Source: Rhodospirillales bacterium (GTDB lineage: Bacteria > Pseudomonadota > Alphaproteobacteria > TMED109). Taken from it: DNA of 64,000 nt. The DNA lies in assembly GCA_028824295.1 (NCBI GenBank), contig JAPPED010000034.1:1-64000 (forward strand), written 5' to 3'. Below, in pieces: positions 15,993 to 35,347 of this stretch; position 1 is the first letter of the stretch; the number at the start of each line of letters is the position of its first letter. The translations under genes were made by a program, and so were the position numbers. The notes under the pieces are model-generated. The model made no database searches. It was given only the letters and a program-made list of their open reading frames with translations, and had not been told where the DNA came from.

Positions 15993-16379
15993 ATGATTCG
16001 AGTTCTCACGGTCGCGGCCGTTCTTGGCGCCTTGGCCATTTCCAGCATGGCTTCGGCAGGCGACGTCGCGAATGGCGAGAAAGTCTTCCAGAAGTGCAAG
16101 GCGTGTCATACCGTTGACGAAGGGGGCAAGGATCGCGTCGGTCCCAACCTCTGGGGAGTCTTTGATACGGCCCTGGGGACCAATCGGCCTGACTACAAGT
16201 ACTCCAAGGGCCTGAAGGCGTTGGGCGAGGAAGGCAAGACCTGGACCGACGAGTTGATGGACACGTGGATTACCAATCCGAAACAGGTAGTTGCCCGCTC
16301 GAAGATGATCTTCCCGGGCCTGAAGAAGCCTGACGACCGCGCGGACGTCATTGCGTACCTCAGACAGTTCGGCGGTTAG
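15993..16379 (+). CDS. Secreted class I cytochrome c (c2/c550 type)
   Basis: Small periplasmic electron carrier, 128 residues before processing. Signal peptide 1-22 ends ASA before GDVANGEKVF. The haem-binding motif is C35-K-A-C38-H39, and the distal ligand is Met105 in SKMIFPGLKK, the arrangement of mitochondrial-type and bacterial c2 cytochromes. The start at 15993 directly precedes the signal peptide. coxG follows 28 bp downstream on the same strand, so the cytochrome may serve a redox enzyme of the neighbouring molybdenum-hydroxylase cluster; that link is inference. Confidence 0.93.
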   Translation: MIRVLTVAAVLGALAISSMASAGDVANGEKVFQKCKACHTVDEGGKDRVGPNLWGVFDTALGTNRPDYKYSKGLKALGEEGKTWTDELMDTWITNPKQVVARSKMIFPGLKKPDDRADVIAYLRQFGG

Positions 16380-16394
16380 GCGGGCACCAAGCTA

Positions 16395-16398
16395 GGAG
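16395..16398 (+). promoter_or_regulatory. Ribosome-binding site for coxG with ATC start
   Basis: GGAG ends 9 nt before ATC 16408. This spacing is what makes a non-canonical ATC initiation more likely than the downstream GTG at 16522, which would truncate the protein. Confidence 0.55.
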
Positions 16399-16407
16399 CC
16401 CCCGACC

Positions 16408-17013
16408 ATCGACTTCAGCGGGCAATTCCAGATCCCGGCGCCGCGGGCCCGGGTCTGGGATGCCCTGAATGATCCGGATGTTCTGAAGCAGTGCATTCCC
16501 GGATGCGAGCATCTGGCCTCGGTGGGTCCCGACGCGTTCGAAGCTCGGGTTCGGGCCCGGGTGGGTCCGGTATCGGCAGCGTTTTCCGGGTCAGTCAAGC
16601 TGTCGGAAGTACAACCTCCCGAGAGCTATGTCCTGGTCGGCGAAGGCAAGGGTGGGGCCGCCGGCTTCGCGAAGGGATCGGCGCGCGTAGCGTTGGCCGA
16701 GAGTGACGACGGCGGAACCGTACTGAGTTACACGGTGGAGGTCGGTGTCGGCGGCCGTCTGGCCCAACTGGGTTCCCGGCTGATTGGGGGCGCGATGGAC
16801 CAGTACTCCACCTCGTTCTTCAATTCCTTCGCCGACATCGTTGCGGCGGAAGCGGCACCGGCAGAGGCTTCCTCCCATGACGCGCCGGTGAAGGATTCGG
16901 TTTCCTCGCGAGAAGAGCCTCCAGCCCGTGGCTCACGTCCTGGCTGGCAAACTCCGCTGCTCGTGGCCTTGGGGATACTGGCGGTGCTCTTGGTGCTGGC
17001 GTCGTTCAGCTGA
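16408..17013 (+). CDS. coxG: CoxG-like SRPBCC protein with C-terminal membrane anchor; probable ATC start
   Basis: CoxG-family protein (SRPBCC fold) linked to CO-dehydrogenase-type enzymes, thought to help tether them or their maturation factors to the membrane. The conserved N-terminus is encoded from 16408: DFSGQFQIPAPRARVWDAL then DPDVLKQCIPGCE. In that frame the only codons between the upstream TAG (16393) and the conserved region are GAG CCC CCG ACC ATC, with GGAG 9 nt before the ATC at 16408. No ATG, GTG or TTG is available until GTG 16522, which would delete 38 conserved residues. A hydrophobic segment at about 178-198 is a membrane helix. It converges on the cox operon with 30 bp between. 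Confidence 0.85.
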   Translation: MDFSGQFQIPAPRARVWDALNDPDVLKQCIPGCEHLASVGPDAFEARVRARVGPVSAAFSGSVKLSEVQPPESYVLVGEGKGGAAGFAKGSARVALAESDDGGTVLSYTVEVGVGGRLAQLGSRLIGGAMDQYSTSFFNSFADIVAAEAAPAEASSHDAPVKDSVSSREEPPARGSRPGWQTPLLVALGILAVLLVLASFS

Positions 17014-17043: not shown

Positions 17044-18633
17044 TCAACAACTGCGCCGCTTTGCCAGGGCCTCGGGGGTGTCGAGGTCGACCAGCGGGGC
17101 GCTCGTGCCGCACTCGACCTCACACACTGCCTCGTCGTTGGAGTCCACGACGTGACGGGCGCCCGTGTCGCCGGTCACCCGCAGGATCTCCGCGAAGTAC
17201 TGGCGCGCGAACAGCACCGGATTGCCGCGGGTCCCGTTGTGCGTGGCGACCACGATACCCCGCCCCTCAATCGGATCGAACGCGGCCATCAGCTGGTCGA
17301 CCAATCCGGCGTCCACGTCCGGCATGTCGGCCAGCATCAGGACGGCCCCATCGTGGCCTGCGGGAACTGCCGCAAGGCCCGCATGCACGCTCGACGAGAG
17401 CCCTTCCCGGAAATCGCTGTTGTGGACGAGTGTGACGTCCAGCCCGTCCAGGACCGCCGCGACTTTGTCCGGTTGATGGCCCGTTACAACGATGATCGGA
17501 GCGGCTTCAGAGGCGATGGCGGCGCTGGCAGCCCTGGCAACCAGAGGTTGGCCGTCGACTGACTCCAGAAGCTTGTTGCCGCCTCGCATTCGCTGCGACC
17601 GGCCTGCGGCCATGATCACGGCTGCAATTCGCGGGGCCCGGCTCTGACGCCGGCGCGCGGCCGTTTTCTTCAGCAGGCCGCCGGCTCCCATGGCAATGAC
17701 AGCGGCCGAGTCCACATCGAGATCAGCAGCAAATCGTTCGAGAACCATGTCCAGCCCGTTGCGGGCGGGAGCTCTCGCGCAGCCGGGCAGACCGATGACG
17801 GGCGTGGACTGCAGGGTGCCCAACAGGAGCAGGTTGCCCGGGTCCACCGGCATGCCAAAGTGATCGATCCGTCCGCCAGCCCGTTCAATGGCCGCCGGGA
17901 TCACGTCTCGCCGGTCGACGATCGCCGAGGCGCCACTCACGAGTACCAAATCCGGCTTGCCAAGGAGTGCTTCAGTCAGGGCGTCGGCCAGCTGTGCCGT
18001 TTCGTGTGGGACCGTGCGTTCTTCGGCCACCGTGCCACCGAGTTCCACGATCCGGTTGCCGACACCGGTCCGGGACAGCTTCAGAAGTTTGGGCGTTGTG
18101 TCGGAAAGGGTCGTCAGCACATGCCCGACCGAGAGGGGCCGGAACGGCGCTACGGAAAGCAGGCCCTCGGCAGACATGCAGGCGGTTTCGACGTCGCCCC
18201 TGGGCACGGCAAAGGGAATGATCTTGATCGTCGCGATGAGGTCACCGGTTCGGACTCGCGCCCCATCGGCCAGCGTTGCGATCGTGATGGCTTCCGAAAC
18301 CAGATTGCAGCGTCGCATGGCGCCGGCATCGACCTGGACGAGGCCGTCGGCCGTTGCCATGACGTTGACACGCCCACCGAACGGCTTGCGAATTTGAGTG
18401 CCTGCGCTGGCGGCCGCCTTTGCGAGCGCGGTGGCTGCCGTGTCTTCTTCCATGTCGTCGGGGCCGAGCCGGGCCACCGTCACTCGATCGATGCCAGCCT
18501 GGCACAAGGCGTCGATGTCGGCAGCGCTCAGTACGCGACCTTTGCGGAACCTGGTGCCGGCCACCCGAAGCGAATGGGCCAGGATGGCTCCTTCGCAGTT
18601 CGAGGCCGGCTGCAGGCCGAAATCCACGGTCAA
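17044..18633 (-). CDS. MoeA-like molybdopterin-binding domain fused to MocA/MobA-type nucleotidyltransferase
   Basis: 529-residue fusion. The N-terminal about 1-320 resembles MoeA/MoCF molybdopterin-binding regions (LAHSLRVAGTRFRKGR at the start, DLVLVSGASAIVDRRDV in the middle). The C-terminal about 337-529 is a nucleotidyltransferase with IMAAGRSQRMRGGNKLL, the NTP loop of the MobA/MocA class, and LADMPDVD. In molybdenum-hydroxylase clusters such proteins are expected to attach CMP to molybdopterin, giving the cytosine dinucleotide cofactor of CO-dehydrogenase-like enzymes. Nucleotide choice is inferred from context. ATG 18633 overlaps the preceding stop (ATGA). Last gene of the operon. Confidence 0.88.
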   Translation of the reverse strand: MTVDFGLQPASNCEGAILAHSLRVAGTRFRKGRVLSAADIDALCQAGIDRVTVARLGPDDMEEDTAATALAKAAASAGTQIRKPFGGRVNVMATADGLVQVDAGAMRRCNLVSEAITIATLADGARVRTGDLIATIKIIPFAVPRGDVETACMSAEGLLSVAPFRPLSVGHVLTTLSDTTPKLLKLSRTGVGNRIVELGGTVAEERTVPHETAQLADALTEALLGKPDLVLVSGASAIVDRRDVIPAAIERAGGRIDHFGMPVDPGNLLLLGTLQSTPVIGLPGCARAPARNGLDMVLERFAADLDVDSAAVIAMGAGGLLKKTAARRRQSRAPRIAAVIMAAGRSQRMRGGNKLLESVDGQPLVARAASAAIASEAAPIIVVTGHQPDKVAAVLDGLDVTLVHNSDFREGLSSSVHAGLAAVPAGHDGAVLMLADMPDVDAGLVDQLMAAFDPIEGRGIVVATHNGTRGNPVLFARQYFAEILRVTGDTGARHVVDSNDEAVCEVECGTSAPLVDLDTPEALAKRRSC

Positions 18634-19328
18634 CTCGCCGCCGCACCGCCGCGCCGCACGCTTACGACTTGGGCGAGAATGGCAGCGGCGATCTCGGCTG
18701 GAGCCCGCGCGCCGATCGCCAGTCCAACCGGTCCATGGATACGGGCGATCTCGGAATCCGAGAAGCCTTCCCGGCGGAGGCGCTTGCAGCGGGCCGCATG
18801 CGTGCGCGTGCTGCCGAGCGAACCCACGAAAAAGGCAGGACTTCGAAGCGCAACGCCGAGGGCCGCGTCGTCCAGCTTTGGGTCGTGGGTGAGCGTGATC
18901 ACGGCTGTGCGGGAGTCCGGCCGGAGCGATGCCATCGCCTCGTCGGGCCAGAGGTCGACAACCTCGACGCCCGGGAACCGCGCGGCAGTGGCGAACGCAC
19001 TCCGCGGATCGATCACGATGGTGTCAAATCCAGCCAGAACCGCCATCCTCACCAGCGGCTGGGCAATGTGGACGGCCCCGACGACGACCATCCGGTGCGG
19101 CGGGGTGTGGACATGGACGAACCACGTCTCACCGTCGGCCACGACGGTCCCGCTCTCGTCGTCCGCGAGCCGCCGCGAGGCGTCCGCCACAGCCTCCTCG
19201 GGTAGGGAGGGGTCCGCGCCGTCGTGCGACACGACCCCCTGCGCGCCATCACTTACTCTGGTGACAACGGCGAGCGGTTGGCGGGCGGCACGTGCCTCGA
19301 GAATCCGTGCTAGCGTGGCGTCCTTCAC
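18630..19328 (-). CDS. XdhC/CoxI-family protein, Rossmann-domain half
   Basis: 232-residue XdhC-family factor, involved in binding the molybdenum cofactor and its sulfuration or insertion into xanthine-dehydrogenase-type enzymes. Central Rossmann-like segment VVVGAVHIAQPL and the C-terminal signature VGSLGSTRTHAAR ... RIHGPVGLAIGARAPAEIAAAI are typical of the XdhC C-terminal domain. The start is GTG 19328, since it overlaps the stop of the upstream XdhC gene as GTGA; the frame open beyond it lies inside that gene. Same operon as coxS-M-D-E. Confidence 0.9.
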   Translation of the reverse strand: MKDATLARILEARAARQPLAVVTRVSDGAQGVVSHDGADPSLPEEAVADASRRLADDESGTVVADGETWFVHVHTPPHRMVVVGAVHIAQPLVRMAVLAGFDTIVIDPRSAFATAARFPGVEVVDLWPDEAMASLRPDSRTAVITLTHDPKLDDAALGVALRSPAFFVGSLGSTRTHAARCKRLRREGFSDSEIARIHGPVGLAIGARAPAEIAAAILAQVVSVRRGGAAAS

Positions 19329-19699
19329 GGGGAGTCGCCAACCCGTTCGACAAGTACCTTGATCCGGCCGCCGCACGCGAGTCCGACTTCCCAGGCGCGT
19401 TCGTTCGTCACGCCGAACTCGAGGAGGCGGGCCTTGCCGTCGGCCATGGCCGCCTGAGCTTCACCAATCACGGCTCCTTCGATGCATCCGCCCGACACCG
19501 AGCCGACGATTTCGAGATCGGCATTGACGGCGAGCTGACTTCCCGGCTGACGGGGACTGGATCCCCACGTGGCGACGACGGTGGCCAGCGCGACAGGGTG
19601 GCCCGCCTGCCGCCAACGCCGCGCTTGGGCGAGTACTTCGTCCGTCGGGGCTGCCTGGGTGGCGGCATCTTCCCGCGGCGGCGGAGCGGAATCCGTCAT
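19325..19699 (-). CDS. XdhC/CoxI-family protein, N-terminal domain only
   Basis: 124-residue protein consisting of the XdhC/CoxI N-terminal domain: ATVVATWGSSPRQPGSQLAV, SVSGGCIEGAV and GLACGGRIKVLVE. It lacks the Rossmann domain, which is encoded by the next gene, so the two together make one XdhC-like unit. Expected role is handling of the molybdenum cofactor for the hydroxylase. 17 bp after coxE; the GTGA overlap with the next gene indicates coupled expression. Confidence 0.9.
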   Translation of the reverse strand: MTDSAPPPREDAATQAAPTDEVLAQARRWRQAGHPVALATVVATWGSSPRQPGSQLAVNADLEIVGSVSGGCIEGAVIGEAQAAMADGKARLLEFGVTNERAWEVGLACGGRIKVLVERVGDSP

Positions 19700-19716
19700 G
19701 ATTGTTCCCGTAACGA

Positions 19717-20895
19717 TCAGGCGTGGCGGACAGGCGTGGTGGCCAGAGAATCTGCCAGGGCACGCAGGCTGTCGAGAGTATGGACTGTCCGGGACTCGTC
19801 AACGTGAGCTGCGATCGCGGCCATTCCTCCGGCGCGTGGCTCGAAGGCAGCGTAGCGCATGAGCGGATTGAGCCATACGAGGCGACGGCACGAGCGCCGC
19901 AGAAGCGCGGCTTCGGCTCCGACATCCACGCCCGGATCGCGCTCGAGGCCGTCGGTCACCAGCAAGACCACCCCGCCGTCGGTGAGAACCCGGCGGGACC
20001 AATGCCGATTGAATGACCGCAACGCCGCTCCGATACGGGTACCGCCGGACCAGTCATGCACCTGACTCACGGCGCGCTGCACTGCGCGGTCAGGATCACC
20101 CTGGCGGAGAGCCCGGGTGACGTCGGTCAGGCGTGTACCGAAGACGAAACTGAACACTCGACGCCGGGTCTGGCCCAACGCGTGCATGAAGTGCAGGAGC
20201 ATGCGGGTATAGGCGGACATGGAGCCGGAGATGTCGCACAGCACGATCACGGTGACCGGGCGGGTGCGACGCTGGCGAAGCTGCAGGCGCAGCGGAATGC
20301 CGCCGGTTCGCGACGCTAGTCGAAGGGTACCGCGAAAGTCGATGCCGTCCCGTCCTGCCCGCGTGGTCCGGAAGCGTCGCGTCGGTAGGTCGCCCAGCGG
20401 CCGGACCAGCCTCTGGACCGCGTCCTGAGCCGCCTGCATCTCTTCCACGCTCATGTCTGCAACGTCGATGGAACCCAGCCGTTCCAGTCGGGATGCACTG
20501 AGGGCAGCCGTGGTCGGAGGGGATTCTCGACCATCGCTTGACGGGGGCAGCGCGCCGAGAGCCTCGGCGACCCGCCGTTGGGCCGGAGCAGGGCGACGAC
20601 GCTTCCCGAAGACGTTCGACTGGCCGACCGGTTCGAGGGCGATCCCCTGCCACAGCGCACGAAATGCGTCATCAAACACATCGACGTCGGCGGCGCGGCG
20701 CACCAGGGTGGCACGAAGGCCCCAGTAGACGTCGTCACGCCGGCGGAGGCCAACCGTTCGGAGCGCGGTCGCCGCCGCGATGCCGTCGGCGGGCCCGAGT
20801 GTCATGCCGGCACGACGGAGCAGTCGAATGAACGTGAGCAGATTGGCCGCAATGTGTCCGCCTCGACGCCCGCTTGCGGGGTCGGGGGTTACCAT
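19717..20895 (-). CDS. coxE: CoxE-like VWA-domain protein
   Basis: 392-residue protein with a von Willebrand factor A domain in the C-terminal half. The MIDAS metal site is present as DISGSMS (Asp221, Ser223, Ser225), with SGGTRIG supplying the Thr and TDGLERD the Asp. In the Oligotropha cox system CoxE works with the AAA+ protein CoxD in sulfuration and assembly of the Cu/Mo centre. Here it is 2 bp downstream of coxD. N-terminal about 1-200 is Arg-rich and typical of the family. Cytosolic, possibly membrane-associated through CoxG. Confidence 0.92.
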   Translation of the reverse strand: MVTPDPASGRRGGHIAANLLTFIRLLRRAGMTLGPADGIAAATALRTVGLRRRDDVYWGLRATLVRRAADVDVFDDAFRALWQGIALEPVGQSNVFGKRRRPAPAQRRVAEALGALPPSSDGRESPPTTAALSASRLERLGSIDVADMSVEEMQAAQDAVQRLVRPLGDLPTRRFRTTRAGRDGIDFRGTLRLASRTGGIPLRLQLRQRRTRPVTVIVLCDISGSMSAYTRMLLHFMHALGQTRRRVFSFVFGTRLTDVTRALRQGDPDRAVQRAVSQVHDWSGGTRIGAALRSFNRHWSRRVLTDGGVVLLVTDGLERDPGVDVGAEAALLRRSCRRLVWLNPLMRYAAFEPRAGGMAAIAAHVDESRTVHTLDSLRALADSLATTPVRHA

Positions 20896-20897
20896 GC

Positions 20898-21788
20898 TCA
20901 GGCTGCTTTCCGGTGTGCCTCGGCCAGGAGGCGCGCGGCCTCCGGCCCCCGGACCTGGTCGATGTCGTCCTGGTACTTCAATAGCACGCCGAGAGTCTGA
21001 TCGACGGAGTCGTCCTCGAGTCGCGTGCAGTCCAGCGCGATCAATGCATGCGCCCAGTCCAGCGTTTCGGCGGTACCCGGAGGTTTGAACAGATCGGTCG
21101 AGCGCAACTCTCGGACGAAGGCGACCACTTCCCGTGCCAGCGTGGGCGGTGCCTCCGGCTGACGAACTCGGAGAATTTCGAACTCGCGGGCGGCATCCGG
21201 GTATCCCACCCAGTGGTAGAGGCAGCGCCGTTTGAGGGCATCGTGGACCTCGCGAGTCCGATTGGACGTGAGAACGACCGGCGGCGGACTGGCCGCAACG
21301 ACGGTGCCGAACTCAGGAATGGTGACTCGAAAATCGGAGAGCAATTCAAGCAAGAGTGCTTCGAAGGGGGCGTCGGCGCGATCGACTTCATCGATCAGGA
21401 GTACCGGCGGGCCGTCCTCGTGGGCTTCCATGGCCTCCAGCAGGGGGCGGCGCACCAGGAATTGGTCGGTGTACAAGTCGGGCGGATCGTCGTCGTTCTT
21501 CACCGACTGGAGGGCCAGCATCTGCGCCGGGTAGTTCCACTCGTAGACGGCGCTCGCGAGATCGAGACCGTCGTGGCAGGAGAGCCGCACCAGCTTGCGC
21601 CCGAGTCCGGTCGCCAGCACGTTGGCGATTTCCGTCTTGCCCACGCCGGTTTCACCCTCGAGAAGCAGGGGACGTTCCATGCGCAAGGCCAAATAGACGA
21701 CCGTGGCCAAAGCCCGGTCGGCGACGTAGTGGCCCGCCTGCAGCAGTTCCAACGTGGCGTCGACCGAAGCCGGCACGGCGTGTGGCAT
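20898..21788 (-). CDS. coxD: CoxD-like MoxR-family AAA+ ATPase
   Basis: 296-residue MoxR-type AAA+ ATPase. Walker A GETGVGKT at 45-52, Walker B VLLIDEVD with Asp133-Glu134, and sensor segment VLTSNRTREV. Acts as a chaperone ATPase with the VWA protein CoxE in maturation of CO-dehydrogenase-type enzymes. Placed between coxM and coxE, the usual MoxR/VWA pairing. Confidence 0.93.
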   Translation of the reverse strand: MPHAVPASVDATLELLQAGHYVADRALATVVYLALRMERPLLLEGETGVGKTEIANVLATGLGRKLVRLSCHDGLDLASAVYEWNYPAQMLALQSVKNDDDPPDLYTDQFLVRRPLLEAMEAHEDGPPVLLIDEVDRADAPFEALLLELLSDFRVTIPEFGTVVAASPPPVVLTSNRTREVHDALKRRCLYHWVGYPDAAREFEILRVRQPEAPPTLAREVVAFVRELRSTDLFKPPGTAETLDWAHALIALDCTRLEDDSVDQTLGVLLKYQDDIDQVRGPEAARLLAEAHRKAA

Positions 21789-21805
21789 TTTCAGGGTGTC
21801 CCGCG

Positions 21806-22597
21806 CTAGCAGGCTGCGACGGCCCGCTTCGCCATGATGCCGATTAGGTGTGCGCGGTAAGCGGCGCTCGCGTGCAGGTCGCTGGTGAGGCCTGCTTCGT
21901 CCACCGGTACGCCGGCCGCCGCTTCGGGGGTGAATGATGCGTCGAGGGCAGCCTCGAACGCTGGATAGCGGGCGGCATATGGCCCGGCGCCGGTCACTGC
22001 CACGCGTACCCCGTCAGCGTGTCGGGCGACGAACACGCCGACCAGCGCAAATCGTGAAGCTGGATTGGGAGCCTTTTGGTAGCCCGCCTGGGCTGGTGTG
22101 GCGAAGCGGACGGCAGTGACGAGCTCGCCGGGTGCCAGCGCGGTCGAGAAAAAGCCCGTGAAGAAATCCGCCGCGGCGATCGTGCGCCGGTTGGTGATCA
22201 CTTCTGCGTCAAGCGCCAACAAGGCCGCCGGATAGTCGGCCGCAGGGTCTGCATTCGCGATGGATCCGCCAATGGTTCCCCGGTTCCGAACGGCCGGGTC
22301 GCCGATGCGGCTGGCAAGCTCCGCCAGCGCCGGCATGCGGTCTGCAACCAACGCGGAGGCGGCAACTTCGGCGTGGGTAGAGGAGGCTCCGATCCGGAGT
22401 CGGCCATCCTCTTCGGAGATGCCGCGCAATTCCTCGACGCCTCCGAGGTCGATCAGGTCGCTGGGATTGGCGAGGCGAAATTTCATCGTAGGAAGCAGTG
22501 TCATGCCGCCAGCGAGATAGCTGCCGTCTTCCGTGGATGCGGCGAGCTGGACCGCAGCGTCCAGGGTGGCCGGCTGATGGTAGGTGAAGCGATACAC
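21806..22597 (-). CDS. coxM: CoxM-like FAD-binding subunit of a molybdenum hydroxylase
   Basis: FAD subunit that passes electrons from the iron-sulfur subunit to the quinone or other acceptor. FAD-binding motifs AGGMTLLP (29-36) and TIGGSIANADPAAD (108-121) are the two classical signatures, slightly varied from AGGHSLLP and TIGGSLAHADP. The start GTG 22597 gives VYRFTYHQPATL, the usual N-terminus, with AGGG upstream, and lies 11 bp after the coxS stop; 263 residues, a little shorter than typical. No large subunit gene lies between this gene and coxS or after it. Confidence 0.93.
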   Translation of the reverse strand: MYRFTYHQPATLDAAVQLAASTEDGSYLAGGMTLLPTMKFRLANPSDLIDLGGVEELRGISEEDGRLRIGASSTHAEVAASALVADRMPALAELASRIGDPAVRNRGTIGGSIANADPAADYPAALLALDAEVITNRRTIAAADFFTGFFSTALAPGELVTAVRFATPAQAGYQKAPNPASRFALVGVFVARHADGVRVAVTGAGPYAARYPAFEAALDASFTPEAAAGVPVDEAGLTSDLHASAAYRAHLIGIMAKRAVAAC

Positions 22598-22608
22598 GGG
22601 TCGGCCCT

Positions 22609-23094
22609 CTACTGACGCATGGCGGCGGCACCGGCCAGCACCGCCTGCACGATGTTGTGGTAGCCGGTACACCGGCAAATGTTGCCTTCAAGGCCCTCGC
22701 GTACCCGCTCCGGAGTCAACGGTTCCGCCGACTGCGCGAGTTCGATGGCCGTCATCACCATGCCCGGAGTACAGAAGCCGCACTGCAGGCCATGATGTTG
22801 GCGGAACGCCTCCTGCATGGGGTGGAGCGACCCGTCGGCGTCGGCCAGCCCCTCAATGGTGCGAACCTCTCGGCCGGCCGCCTGCACCGCCAGCACGCTG
22901 CACGACTTGACGGCGATGCCGTCGAGGTGCACCACGCATGCCCCGCACTGGCTGGTGTCGCAGCCGATATGCGTGCCGGTGAGCCGGAGAGTGTCACGCA
23001 GAAAGTCCACGAGCAGCGTGCGCGGTTCCGCAGGACCTTCAACGTCCTTGCCGTTCACACGGAAGGTAATGGGAGCGGACTGGTCGGTTGCCAC
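22609..23094 (-). CDS. coxS: CoxS-like [2Fe-2S] subunit of a molybdenum hydroxylase
   Basis: 161-residue iron-sulfur subunit. The plant-type [2Fe-2S] cluster is bound by Cys45, Cys50, Cys53 and Cys65, the second cluster by Cys105, Cys108, Cys140 and Cys142 (CGFCTPG and CRCTGY). The start is GTG 23094 with GGAGG 6 nt upstream; the longer open frame before it is unrelated. First gene of the minus-strand cox operon, divergent from the decarboxylase gene with a 298-bp gap in which no other gene is seen. Confidence 0.96.
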
Positions 23095-23100
23095 GGGTTT

Positions 23101-23105
23101 CCTCC
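23101..23105 (-). promoter_or_regulatory. Ribosome-binding site deciding the coxS start
   Basis: A perfect GGAGG on the minus strand ends 6 nt before GTG 23094. It settles the start of coxS against longer in-frame alternatives reaching 23214. Confidence 0.8.
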
Positions 23106-23392
23106 GGACCGGGCTGGGCGGGCGCCGGCCATGCCGGCACCGAACCGTCAAGATGAAGCGAAAAGGCCAATGGGTCAATTCGCAGGAACCGGGAGCGGGA
23201 CCGCTGTCCCGCACTCCGTACCCCCCTCTAGCCGGGGTGCAGCCCGCCGAACCCAGCGCTTCATGGAGTCGTCAGTGCCCGCCTGCCCCTACGTATCTCG
23301 TCCCGGCCGTGGCAGGATCACCGCGTGACCCCGACGGAGGCAGGGGAACGGCGTCCCGCCGCTGTTCGGGAGTACGGCAAGGAGATCTGATC

Positions 23393-33243: not shown

Positions 33244-34719
33244 ATGGCGAACGATGCATACCGGCGGCTGGTACAGAATTTCGCCGCCATCCAGGACCTG
33301 AATTCCGCGGCGAACACCCTGGACTGGTACGCAAGGACCAAGGCTCCGAAAGCTGCGCAGCCGGGGCTTGGAAGCCAGATCGCGACGCTGAGAAAGCAGG
33401 CACATGAACTGCTCGTGAACCCCAGGAGTGCCGACGACCTTGCGGCCGCCACAGCGTGCGAGCCCTGGGAAGCCGCCAATCTGCGTGAAATGCGTCGCCG
33501 ACATCGCCTTGCCACAGCCCTGCCGGCCGATTTCGTGGAGGCTCAGGTTTTGGCGGCCTCCCGAGCCCAGCTGGTCTGGGAGAGGTCGAGGCCGGAAGCG
33601 GATTTTGCGGCTTTTCTGCCAGCCCTGAGGGAGTTTCTCGGGCACGTTCGCGAACGGGCTCGGATACAGGGCAGGGCCCTCGGGCTGTCGCCCTACGATG
33701 CGTTGTTGGAGGCGCACGATCCGGGCCGGCGGAACGCCGACATAACGAGGATGTTCGGAGAATTGGAAACGGTCCTGCCGGGCATCGTCGACCAGGTCCG
33801 CGGCGGACCGAAGCCGGCCGGGCCGACCGGGAAGAAGAGGAAGCTCAAGCGGGTCGCCCGTCGGATGATGACGATGATTGGCCTGCCGGCGACCCATGCT
33901 CGCCTGGATACATCATCCCATCCGTTCACCGCTGGCGAGCCCGAAGACATTCGCATTACGACCCGTTATTCCGGAGCCCCGGGCGAAACACTGATGGCGG
34001 TCCTCCACGAGTGCGGGCATGCGTTGTACGTCGCGGGCTTGCCCGCGGCCCATCGCCGGCAGCCGGTCGGGGCAGCCCGGGGCATGACCGCCCATGAGAG
34101 CCAGAGCCTATTGATCGAGATGTTCGCCTGCCGGTCGCGCGGCTTCGCCGTCCACTACGCACGGCTGCTTCGGGACGAGTTCGGCGAAGAGGGCGCGTGG
34201 GATCCGGACCGACTGCACAAGGTGCTCACGCATGTCGAGCCTGGCGTCACGCGCGTCGAGGCAGACGAGGTCACATACCCGCTGCACATCGTCATTCGCC
34301 ACCGCTGTGAAACCGCAATGCTCGACGGGACGCTCGACCCGGCCGACCTGCCGGACGCCTTCAACGACGCCATGGTGGCGCTGCTCGGAATCCGCCCCAC
34401 GAATCCGCGTGAAGGCTGCCTTCAAGATCCGCACTGGACTCTTGTGGAGGGTTGGGCCTACTTCCCGACCTACGCGTTGGGAGCACTCATGGCTGCACAG
34501 CTGGCCGAGACCATGTGGGCTGTCTTGCCCGATCTCAACGGCGATCTCGCGCGGGGCGACTTTGCTCCGCTTGCCAAGTGGTTGCGGGAGAATGTGCACA
34601 GCCGGGGCTGCTTCGATTCGTCGGCGGACGCGTTGCTGGAGCACGCAACCGGCCGCCCGCTCGATACCGGGGCGTTCATGCGCCATCTGGAACGCCGTTA
34701 CCTGTGCCGCAGGTCATAA
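33244..34719 (+). CDS. M32-family metallocarboxypeptidase (carboxypeptidase Taq type)
   Basis: Cytosolic zinc carboxypeptidase, 491 residues, normal size for M32. The zinc motif HECGH is at 255-259, followed about 40 residues later by HESQSLLIE and then by EADEVTYPLHIVIRHRCE, both family landmarks; PHWTLVEGWAYFPTYALGAL near 400-420 is also typical. Start 33244 (MANDAYRR) has GGGGAAG just before it; a further upstream start at 33196 has no support. It is a single plus-strand gene between gmk and the TPR gene, where yicC would be expected. Confidence 0.94.
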   Translation: MANDAYRRLVQNFAAIQDLNSAANTLDWYARTKAPKAAQPGLGSQIATLRKQAHELLVNPRSADDLAAATACEPWEAANLREMRRRHRLATALPADFVEAQVLAASRAQLVWERSRPEADFAAFLPALREFLGHVRERARIQGRALGLSPYDALLEAHDPGRRNADITRMFGELETVLPGIVDQVRGGPKPAGPTGKKRKLKRVARRMMTMIGLPATHARLDTSSHPFTAGEPEDIRITTRYSGAPGETLMAVLHECGHALYVAGLPAAHRRQPVGAARGMTAHESQSLLIEMFACRSRGFAVHYARLLRDEFGEEGAWDPDRLHKVLTHVEPGVTRVEADEVTYPLHIVIRHRCETAMLDGTLDPADLPDAFNDAMVALLGIRPTNPREGCLQDPHWTLVEGWAYFPTYALGALMAAQLAETMWAVLPDLNGDLARGDFAPLAKWLRENVHSRGCFDSSADALLEHATGRPLDTGAFMRHLERRYLCRRS

Positions 34720-34822
34720 CGTCCGGCCCCTCGATTCGGGGATTCGGCGTGGACCGCAGTCGGCGGGGGCGGAGGTACGCGCGCTGACACTCGATCCCGC
34801 CTGGCGCCGCGACACATCCGGG

Positions 34823-35347
34823 CTAGCGTCGGCGATCGTCCATCTTTGCGAGAAACAGGCGTATGTGTTCGGCGACCCAGCTGGGCAGTTCCTCCGCGAG
34901 GGCTAGTTCGAAATGTCTTCTTGCCGTCTGATCGTCCTCCATCAGAAAAAAGGTCGTGGCGAGTTCGATCCGGGCGCGCACATATTCCGGGCGCGCATCC
35001 AGGACCTCGCCGAAAGCCGAGACCGCCTCGTCAAGCAGCGCCTGCCGCTCTGGCGCAGGTACCTGCAGATACTGGACCTTCCCGGCCGACGCCAAACCAA
35101 GAAGGAAGAAAAGATCTGTGTCAGTTGAACCGGCTTCCCGGTGAGCGCGCAGCATGGGAAGCACCTGGTCGAAGTGGCCGATCGCGAGCAAGAGACGGGC
35201 CTTGTCAATGGTTTCTGCGACCGACGGCAGGGGCGCCGGCTGATCTGATTGCGAATCTTCCGCGTATACGCAAGTGCCACCGGTGAACGTCAGCAGCGCC
35301 GCGAATGCGAGCGCCTGCAGCGTGAGGCAAAGTCTCGGGATATCCAT
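34823..35347 (-). CDS. Exported TPR-type protein, like the N-terminal domain of a Slam protein
   Basis: 174 residues with a signal peptide about 1-29 (ending VYAEDSQ). The rest is helical and TPR-like: IDKARLLLAIGHFDQVLPMLR, AVSAFGEVLDARPEYVRARIELATTFFLMEDDQTARRHFE. The C-terminus LPSWVAEHIRLFLAKMDDRRR matches the linker that normally leads into the beta-barrel (DUF560) of surface lipoprotein assembly modifiers, yet a stop follows at once and no barrel is encoded beyond it. It is either a truncated Slam or an independent periplasmic TPR adaptor. Function not assigned. Confidence 0.7.
   Translation of the reverse strand: MDIPRLCLTLQALAFAALLTFTGGTCVYAEDSQSDQPAPLPSVAETIDKARLLLAIGHFDQVLPMLRAHREAGSTDTDLFFLLGLASAGKVQYLQVPAPERQALLDEAVSAFGEVLDARPEYVRARIELATTFFLMEDDQTARRHFELALAEELPSWVAEHIRLFLAKMDDRRR

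Follow-up and report, generated by a model that had tools for sequence, protein, structure and literature searches.

An ATC codon conserved within one alphaproteobacterial genus is the probable start codon of coxG

The coxG gene of a Rhodospirillales bacterium has no ordinary start codon, and it is very probably translated, at a low level, from an AUC (ATC 16408) at which an SD-like motif would place the ribosome; initiation there would probably be limited by IF3 and perhaps be coupled to the cytochrome gene upstream. The product is predicted to be an accessory protein of an enzyme of the carbon monoxide dehydrogenase type. The gene lies in the 64,000 nt stretch of contig JAPPED010000034.1 that we analyzed (the window). 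The earlier note had proposed the ATC start from the letters of the window, and its description of this region proved accurate: the coxG frame is closed upstream by an in-frame TAG, there is no in-frame ATG, GTG or TTG between this TAG and the GTG at codon 39, and sequence conserved in the CoxG family is in frame from 16411, upstream of any ordinary start. The codons after the TAG are GAG CCC CCG ACC ATC GAC TTC AGC GGG, and the source genome has no ATG, GTG or TTG between -32 and +9 of the ATC in any of the three frames. The AGGAG motif, 9 nt before the ATC as the note had observed, overlaps the TAG. Family membership is clear (115 bits with Pfam CoxG against a gathering cut-off of 22.2). Starting at the GTG would drop codons 1-38 and lower the score to 65.9 bits; the profile match would then begin at position 37 of 140, leaving the 36 positions before it unmatched. 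The coordinates of these and other features are collected in Table 1.

Table 1. Coordinates of features at the coxG locus and of other frames discussed in the text (window positions unless a contig is given)
Feature	Position	Strand	Evidence
c-type cytochrome gene upstream, 128 aa, CKACH	15993..16379	+	Pfam Cytochrom_C E 1.3e-11; stop TAG 16377-16379
In-frame TAG	16393..16395	+	at -15 in 6/6 genus members
AGGAG, SD-like motif	16394..16398	+	same distance in 6/6 genus members: AGGAG in 4, AGGGG in 2
coxG CDS, 201 codons + stop	16408..17013	+	Pfam COXG (PF06240) E 2.8e-33; aligned with five genus members and G007; dN far below dS
ATC, inferred start codon	16408..16410	+	ATC in 6/6 genus members; ATG or TTG in 24/24 other loci
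GTG, first ordinary in-frame start, rejected	16522..16524	+	GCA in G001 and G003
C-terminal hydrophobic stretch, possible membrane anchor	16945..17010	+	seen in the sequence; hydrophobic in each of the six genus copies
rsh	G000:C3 187544 onward		HD_4, RelA_SpoT and TGS domains; ATT the only plausible start, 7/7
Two short, weak flagged ORFs	C34 90754-92089; C3 7408-7840	-; -	

Within the genus, coxG is present in six of the seven genomes, the source genome included. All six copies carry the ATC, the TAG 15 nt upstream and the AGGAG or AGGGG motif, and none has an ordinary in-frame start before the conserved region. TTG codons near the ATC occur in G003 alone, where both are out of frame. The SD duplex is predicted at -5.6 to -6.5 kcal/mol across the six members, using an anti-SD tail that may differ from that of the host. 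The copies fall into two clades, one comprising the source genome (G000), G002, G004 and G005 and the other G001 and G003. In the seventh genome, G006, coxG is lost or missing: a 4.9-kb query around the gene found an alpha/beta hydrolase region and three short hits there, and no coxG. The earlier note had also raised the possibility of a sequencing or assembly error at base 16410, with an ATG read as ATC. The window comes from a genome in 35 contigs (3.02 Mb), but the identical ATC stands in the MAG records of the five other genus copies (L031 to L035). With flanking sequences that vary among these records, the same mistake in all of them is not credible, and we give this explanation practically no weight. 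By this comparison, the ATC looks like a real, inherited feature.

Outside the genus, a different codon is found at the aligned position. A homologue listing gave 43 places, from which 30 loci were fetched (6 from the genus, 11 from elsewhere in the family and 13 from other families); the aligned codon is ATC in 6 (all from the genus), ATG in 22 and TTG in 2. For other genera of the same family, ATG stands at exactly the aligned codon in the loci read, bar one TTG. A second set of 52 loci, which may overlap the first, comprised 5 ATC (again all from the genus), 42 ATG, 2 GTG, 1 TTG, 1 GTC and one position off the contig. This amounts to an ordinary start codon in 45 of the 47 non-genus loci, the two exceptions being L052, which has the GTC and an in-frame ATG two codons upstream, and L075, which is cut by the contig end. 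The ATC is thus not conserved beyond the genus in either set and, judging from the alignments, most likely arose from an ATG, no later than in the ancestor of the genus.

These comparisons also bear on the GTG at 16522, which is the first ordinary in-frame start codon and would give a protein without the first 38 residues. The earlier note had held that homologues starting there would count against the ATC. None of the relatives for which a start could be read begins at that position; their starts stand at the ATC position, and two of the six genus members carry GCA in place of the GTG itself. In addition, the solved relatives 2pcs and 8uds both align from query residue 4, upstream of a start at the GTG, and codons 2-38 are under purifying selection. 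We consider translation from the GTG most unlikely.

The evidence for selection on the N-terminus comes from comparing the two clades. For codons 2-38, dS is 0.38-0.59 and dN is 0.05-0.09, and in the stretch ahead of the first canonical start that G000 and G001 have in common, codon position 1 has 3 changes, position 2 has 4 and position 3 has 20. Because dN is far below dS in codons 2-38 and the second clade has GCA where the GTG stands, the substitution pattern indicates that coding constraint begins near codon 2. For codons 39-145, dS is 0.73-1.26 (53 synonymous differences over an estimated 87 sites between G000 and G001) and dN is 0.06-0.08; that dS is lower in codons 2-38 would be in line with additional constraint close to a start, in a small sample. 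The missing canonical start could alternatively mean that translation of coxG ceased when its start was lost. This is highly improbable, given that the frames are open in all six genus copies and that dN is 0.06-0.08 against a dS of 0.7-1.3 between clades over codons 39-145. The comparison of congeners at a dS near 1 can reveal near-cognate starts without proteomics.

The gene arrangement upstream of coxG is also conserved. A CxxCH frame precedes coxG in all six genus loci, and this cytochrome gene ends exactly 28 nt before the ATC in each of them. Nine of the 11 other family loci fetched have a CxxCH frame before coxG as well, with a gap of 3, 6 or 14 nt and an ATG as the coxG start; no such frame was found before coxG in the 13 loci from other families. 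Coupling of the two genes is uncertain, as 28 nt exceeds the 3-14 nt that separate the cytochrome from coxG elsewhere in the family. The adjacency and constant spacing would be in keeping with a fused product, made by reading through the cytochrome stop codon and shifting to the +1 frame. However, such a fusion needs two recoding events, first passing the cytochrome TAG and then shifting between TAG 16393 and 16408, and the spacer differs strongly between clades with no shared slippery run (GCCCCCG vs GCCTCAG), making a fusion very unlikely. The base-call error, the GTG start, the cytochrome fusion and the loss of translation were all rejected on the evidence given for each.

Downstream of coxG, coxM-, coxS-, coxD-, coxE-, xdhC- and mobA-like genes lie on the other strand at 17044-23142. 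One frame among them (17044-18633, minus strand) joins a MoCF_biosynth (molybdopterin-binding) part and a MobA-like NTP transferase part. The set thus holds accessory, small-subunit and medium-subunit genes of the cox type. The window has six ORFs of at least 600 aa; five were scanned, and none of these five has a domain of the molybdenum (large) subunit, so that a CoxMSL enzyme as the partner of CoxG is a possibility only. In one published model, CoxG passes electrons from the enzyme to quinones (PMC13077300).

We propose that the AGGAG or AGGGG motif 9 nt upstream would place the 30S subunit at AUC 16408, where the fMet-tRNA (anticodon CAU) would pair with the first two bases of the codon and mismatch the third. 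If fMet-tRNA decodes the AUC, CoxG would begin with Met, as MDFSGQFQIP, and the predicted N-terminal peptide is MDFSGQFQIPAPR (or DFSG...). Ribosomes finishing the cytochrome c gene 28 nt upstream may re-initiate at coxG. The AUC is expected to initiate weakly and to be disfavored by IF3, which would lead to a CoxG level below that of the cytochrome; that the level is set in this way is conceivable. A regulatory role of the AUC is the least certain step of this proposal. A 64-codon measurement in E. coli was reportedly made by Hecht in 2017. According to an in vitro survey, weak third-base pairs are excluded by IF3: AUU was down to 31.1% with the anticodon CAU, and no product came from AUC at 1.5 µM IF3 with UAU or AAU, two anticodons other than the CAU of fMet-tRNA (PMC10158994). 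These data point to weak output from AUC and are the main biochemical argument against its efficient use. For the GTC start of sigR, extra IF3 is described as lowering SigR and IF3 fidelity mutants as raising it (PMC5472188).

The AUC may also be used without any regulatory role, as a nearly neutral substitution that was fixed in the genus ancestor. We consider this a substantial possibility without favoring it, and it is compatible with our proposal except for the regulatory part. A single codon cannot show selection, and the invariance of one codon across two clades is no proof that ATC itself is selected for; ordinary starts are also missing from further genes of the genus (see below). Against neutrality, the one-base reversion to ATG is seen in none of the six species at a dS of up to about 1.3.

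With respect to the components that would act at the AUC, an initiator anticodon-arm pattern (with CAU or GAU allowed) matched in only one of the seven genus genomes (G006, CAU form), and ARAGORN detected no tRNA in the 2.1-kb G006 locus with this match. There were 41 tRNA matches in the source genome, among which ARAGORN named one tRNA-Met(CAU); judged by eye, this tRNA-Met(CAU) lacks an initiator-type anticodon stem. An unusual initiator tRNA in the genus is possible, because the exact pattern yielded no initiator tRNA from the genus MAGs. A comparison of IF3 from six genus members with 19 outgroup sequences (5 of 24 outgroup loci were unparsed) revealed four genus-specific changes at positions at least 80% conserved, two K to R, one K to S and one E to D, and no obvious IF3 fidelity lesion.

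Other genes of the genus appear to lack an ordinary start as well. For rsh, an ATT follows GGAGGA in all seven genus members, with an in-frame stop 21-30 nt upstream and no canonical start from this stop to +60. Among 13 rsh loci of other families, the codon just before the aligned one is ATG or GTG in 11, the aligned codon itself is ATG in one, and one locus was unparsed. A rarA-like ATPase gene (G000:C8 91411 onward) has CTG at the expected start in 7/7 genus members, and GTG or ATG is found at that codon in four of the eight loci examined from other families. This case is weaker, since it shows no clear ribosome site and the frame runs on without a stop for 60 nt upstream. Finally, infC (G000:C32) has a conserved ATC 8 nt after GGAG at the family start in all six complete genus copies (that of G004 being truncated), and canonical codons are absent between -57 and +105. 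In-frame GTG codons are located beyond this stretch, anywhere from -57 to -267 according to the genome and at positions that differ between clades, and the ATC start of infC is therefore probable but not forced. By inspection, ATA is common near the expected infC start in other infC loci (21 of 24 parsed).

We also scanned 642,334 bases of the 3.02 Mb source genome for near-cognate starts against 0.55 Mb of G001. The scan flagged 24 of 306 ORFs, of which 16 are overlapped by a longer frame and so are probably its shadows. The other eight were coxG, rsh, the rarA-like gene, prfB, an SLC13-like candidate, a C8 gene with an ATG after a conserved leader and two short, weak ORFs. The prfB flag, which we take to be such from its +1 frameshift site, serves as a positive control. 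The frame that by eye resembles an SLC13 transporter (G000:C3 about 33615-35193, minus strand) has a conserved N-terminus before any canonical start, and a CTG overlapping the TGA of the upstream gene is a possible start. In a control pair from an AT-richer genus of the same family (G014/G020), one of 125 ORFs was flagged, again prfB. The difference of 3/306 versus 0/125 is not significant (about 0.36 one-sided, by hand), and looser scans gave more flags, again mostly short overlapping frames. The cases found suggest that near-cognate starts may be unusually frequent in the genus. A wider reading would be that ATC, ATT and CTG starts serve numerous ordinary genes of the genus (roughly 1% of the genes scanned), through relaxed initiation fidelity or an IF3-set program linking coxG, rsh, the rarA-like gene and probably infC; we regard this as rather unlikely. 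The upstream GTG codons of infC, the poor ribosome site of the rarA-like gene and the in vitro data on IF3 slightly reduced our confidence both in initiation at the AUC and in the genus-wide reading.

Near-cognate starts are a known kind of feature. The literature searched, which was screened by titles and abstract openings, contained no near-cognate start for coxG, nor this handful of such genes within a single genus. Few conserved near-cognate bacterial starts have been tested, those met here being infC, pcnB, sigR, cvfC1 and ccpN. A gene finder restricted to ATG, GTG and TTG would shorten CoxG by 38 residues. With the AUC of coxG, the AUU of rsh and the CUG of the rarA-like gene in one genus, the idea that such starts are an overlooked layer of control becomes testable.

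Among the known systems, translation of E. coli pcnB (AUU) is limited by its weak start codon; the codon and the gene differ from those of coxG. Like coxG, infC has a near-cognate start behind an SD motif, given as ATC in Streptomyces and ATT in E. coli (PMC5472188) and as AUA in S. aureus (PMC13009471). However, infC is self-regulating, whereas coxG is a metabolic accessory gene whose relatives outside the genus start with ATG, GTG or TTG. The Streptomyces sigR gene shares with coxG a genus-wide noncanonical start, reported as GTC in 32 of 34 species and GTT in two, and the sigR GTC is described as IF3-repressed and as setting the ratio of two co-transcribed genes (PMC5472188). The two cases differ in codon, gene and phylum, and sigR was tested experimentally while coxG is known here from sequence. 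The S. aureus genes cvfC1 (AUU) and ccpN (AUA) likewise have conserved near-cognate starts, with reporter output given as about 10% of that from AUG in poor medium and, for ccpN, up to 30% in rich medium (PMC13009471). Both have extended SD motifs, in contrast to coxG, which has only AGGAG or AGGGG.
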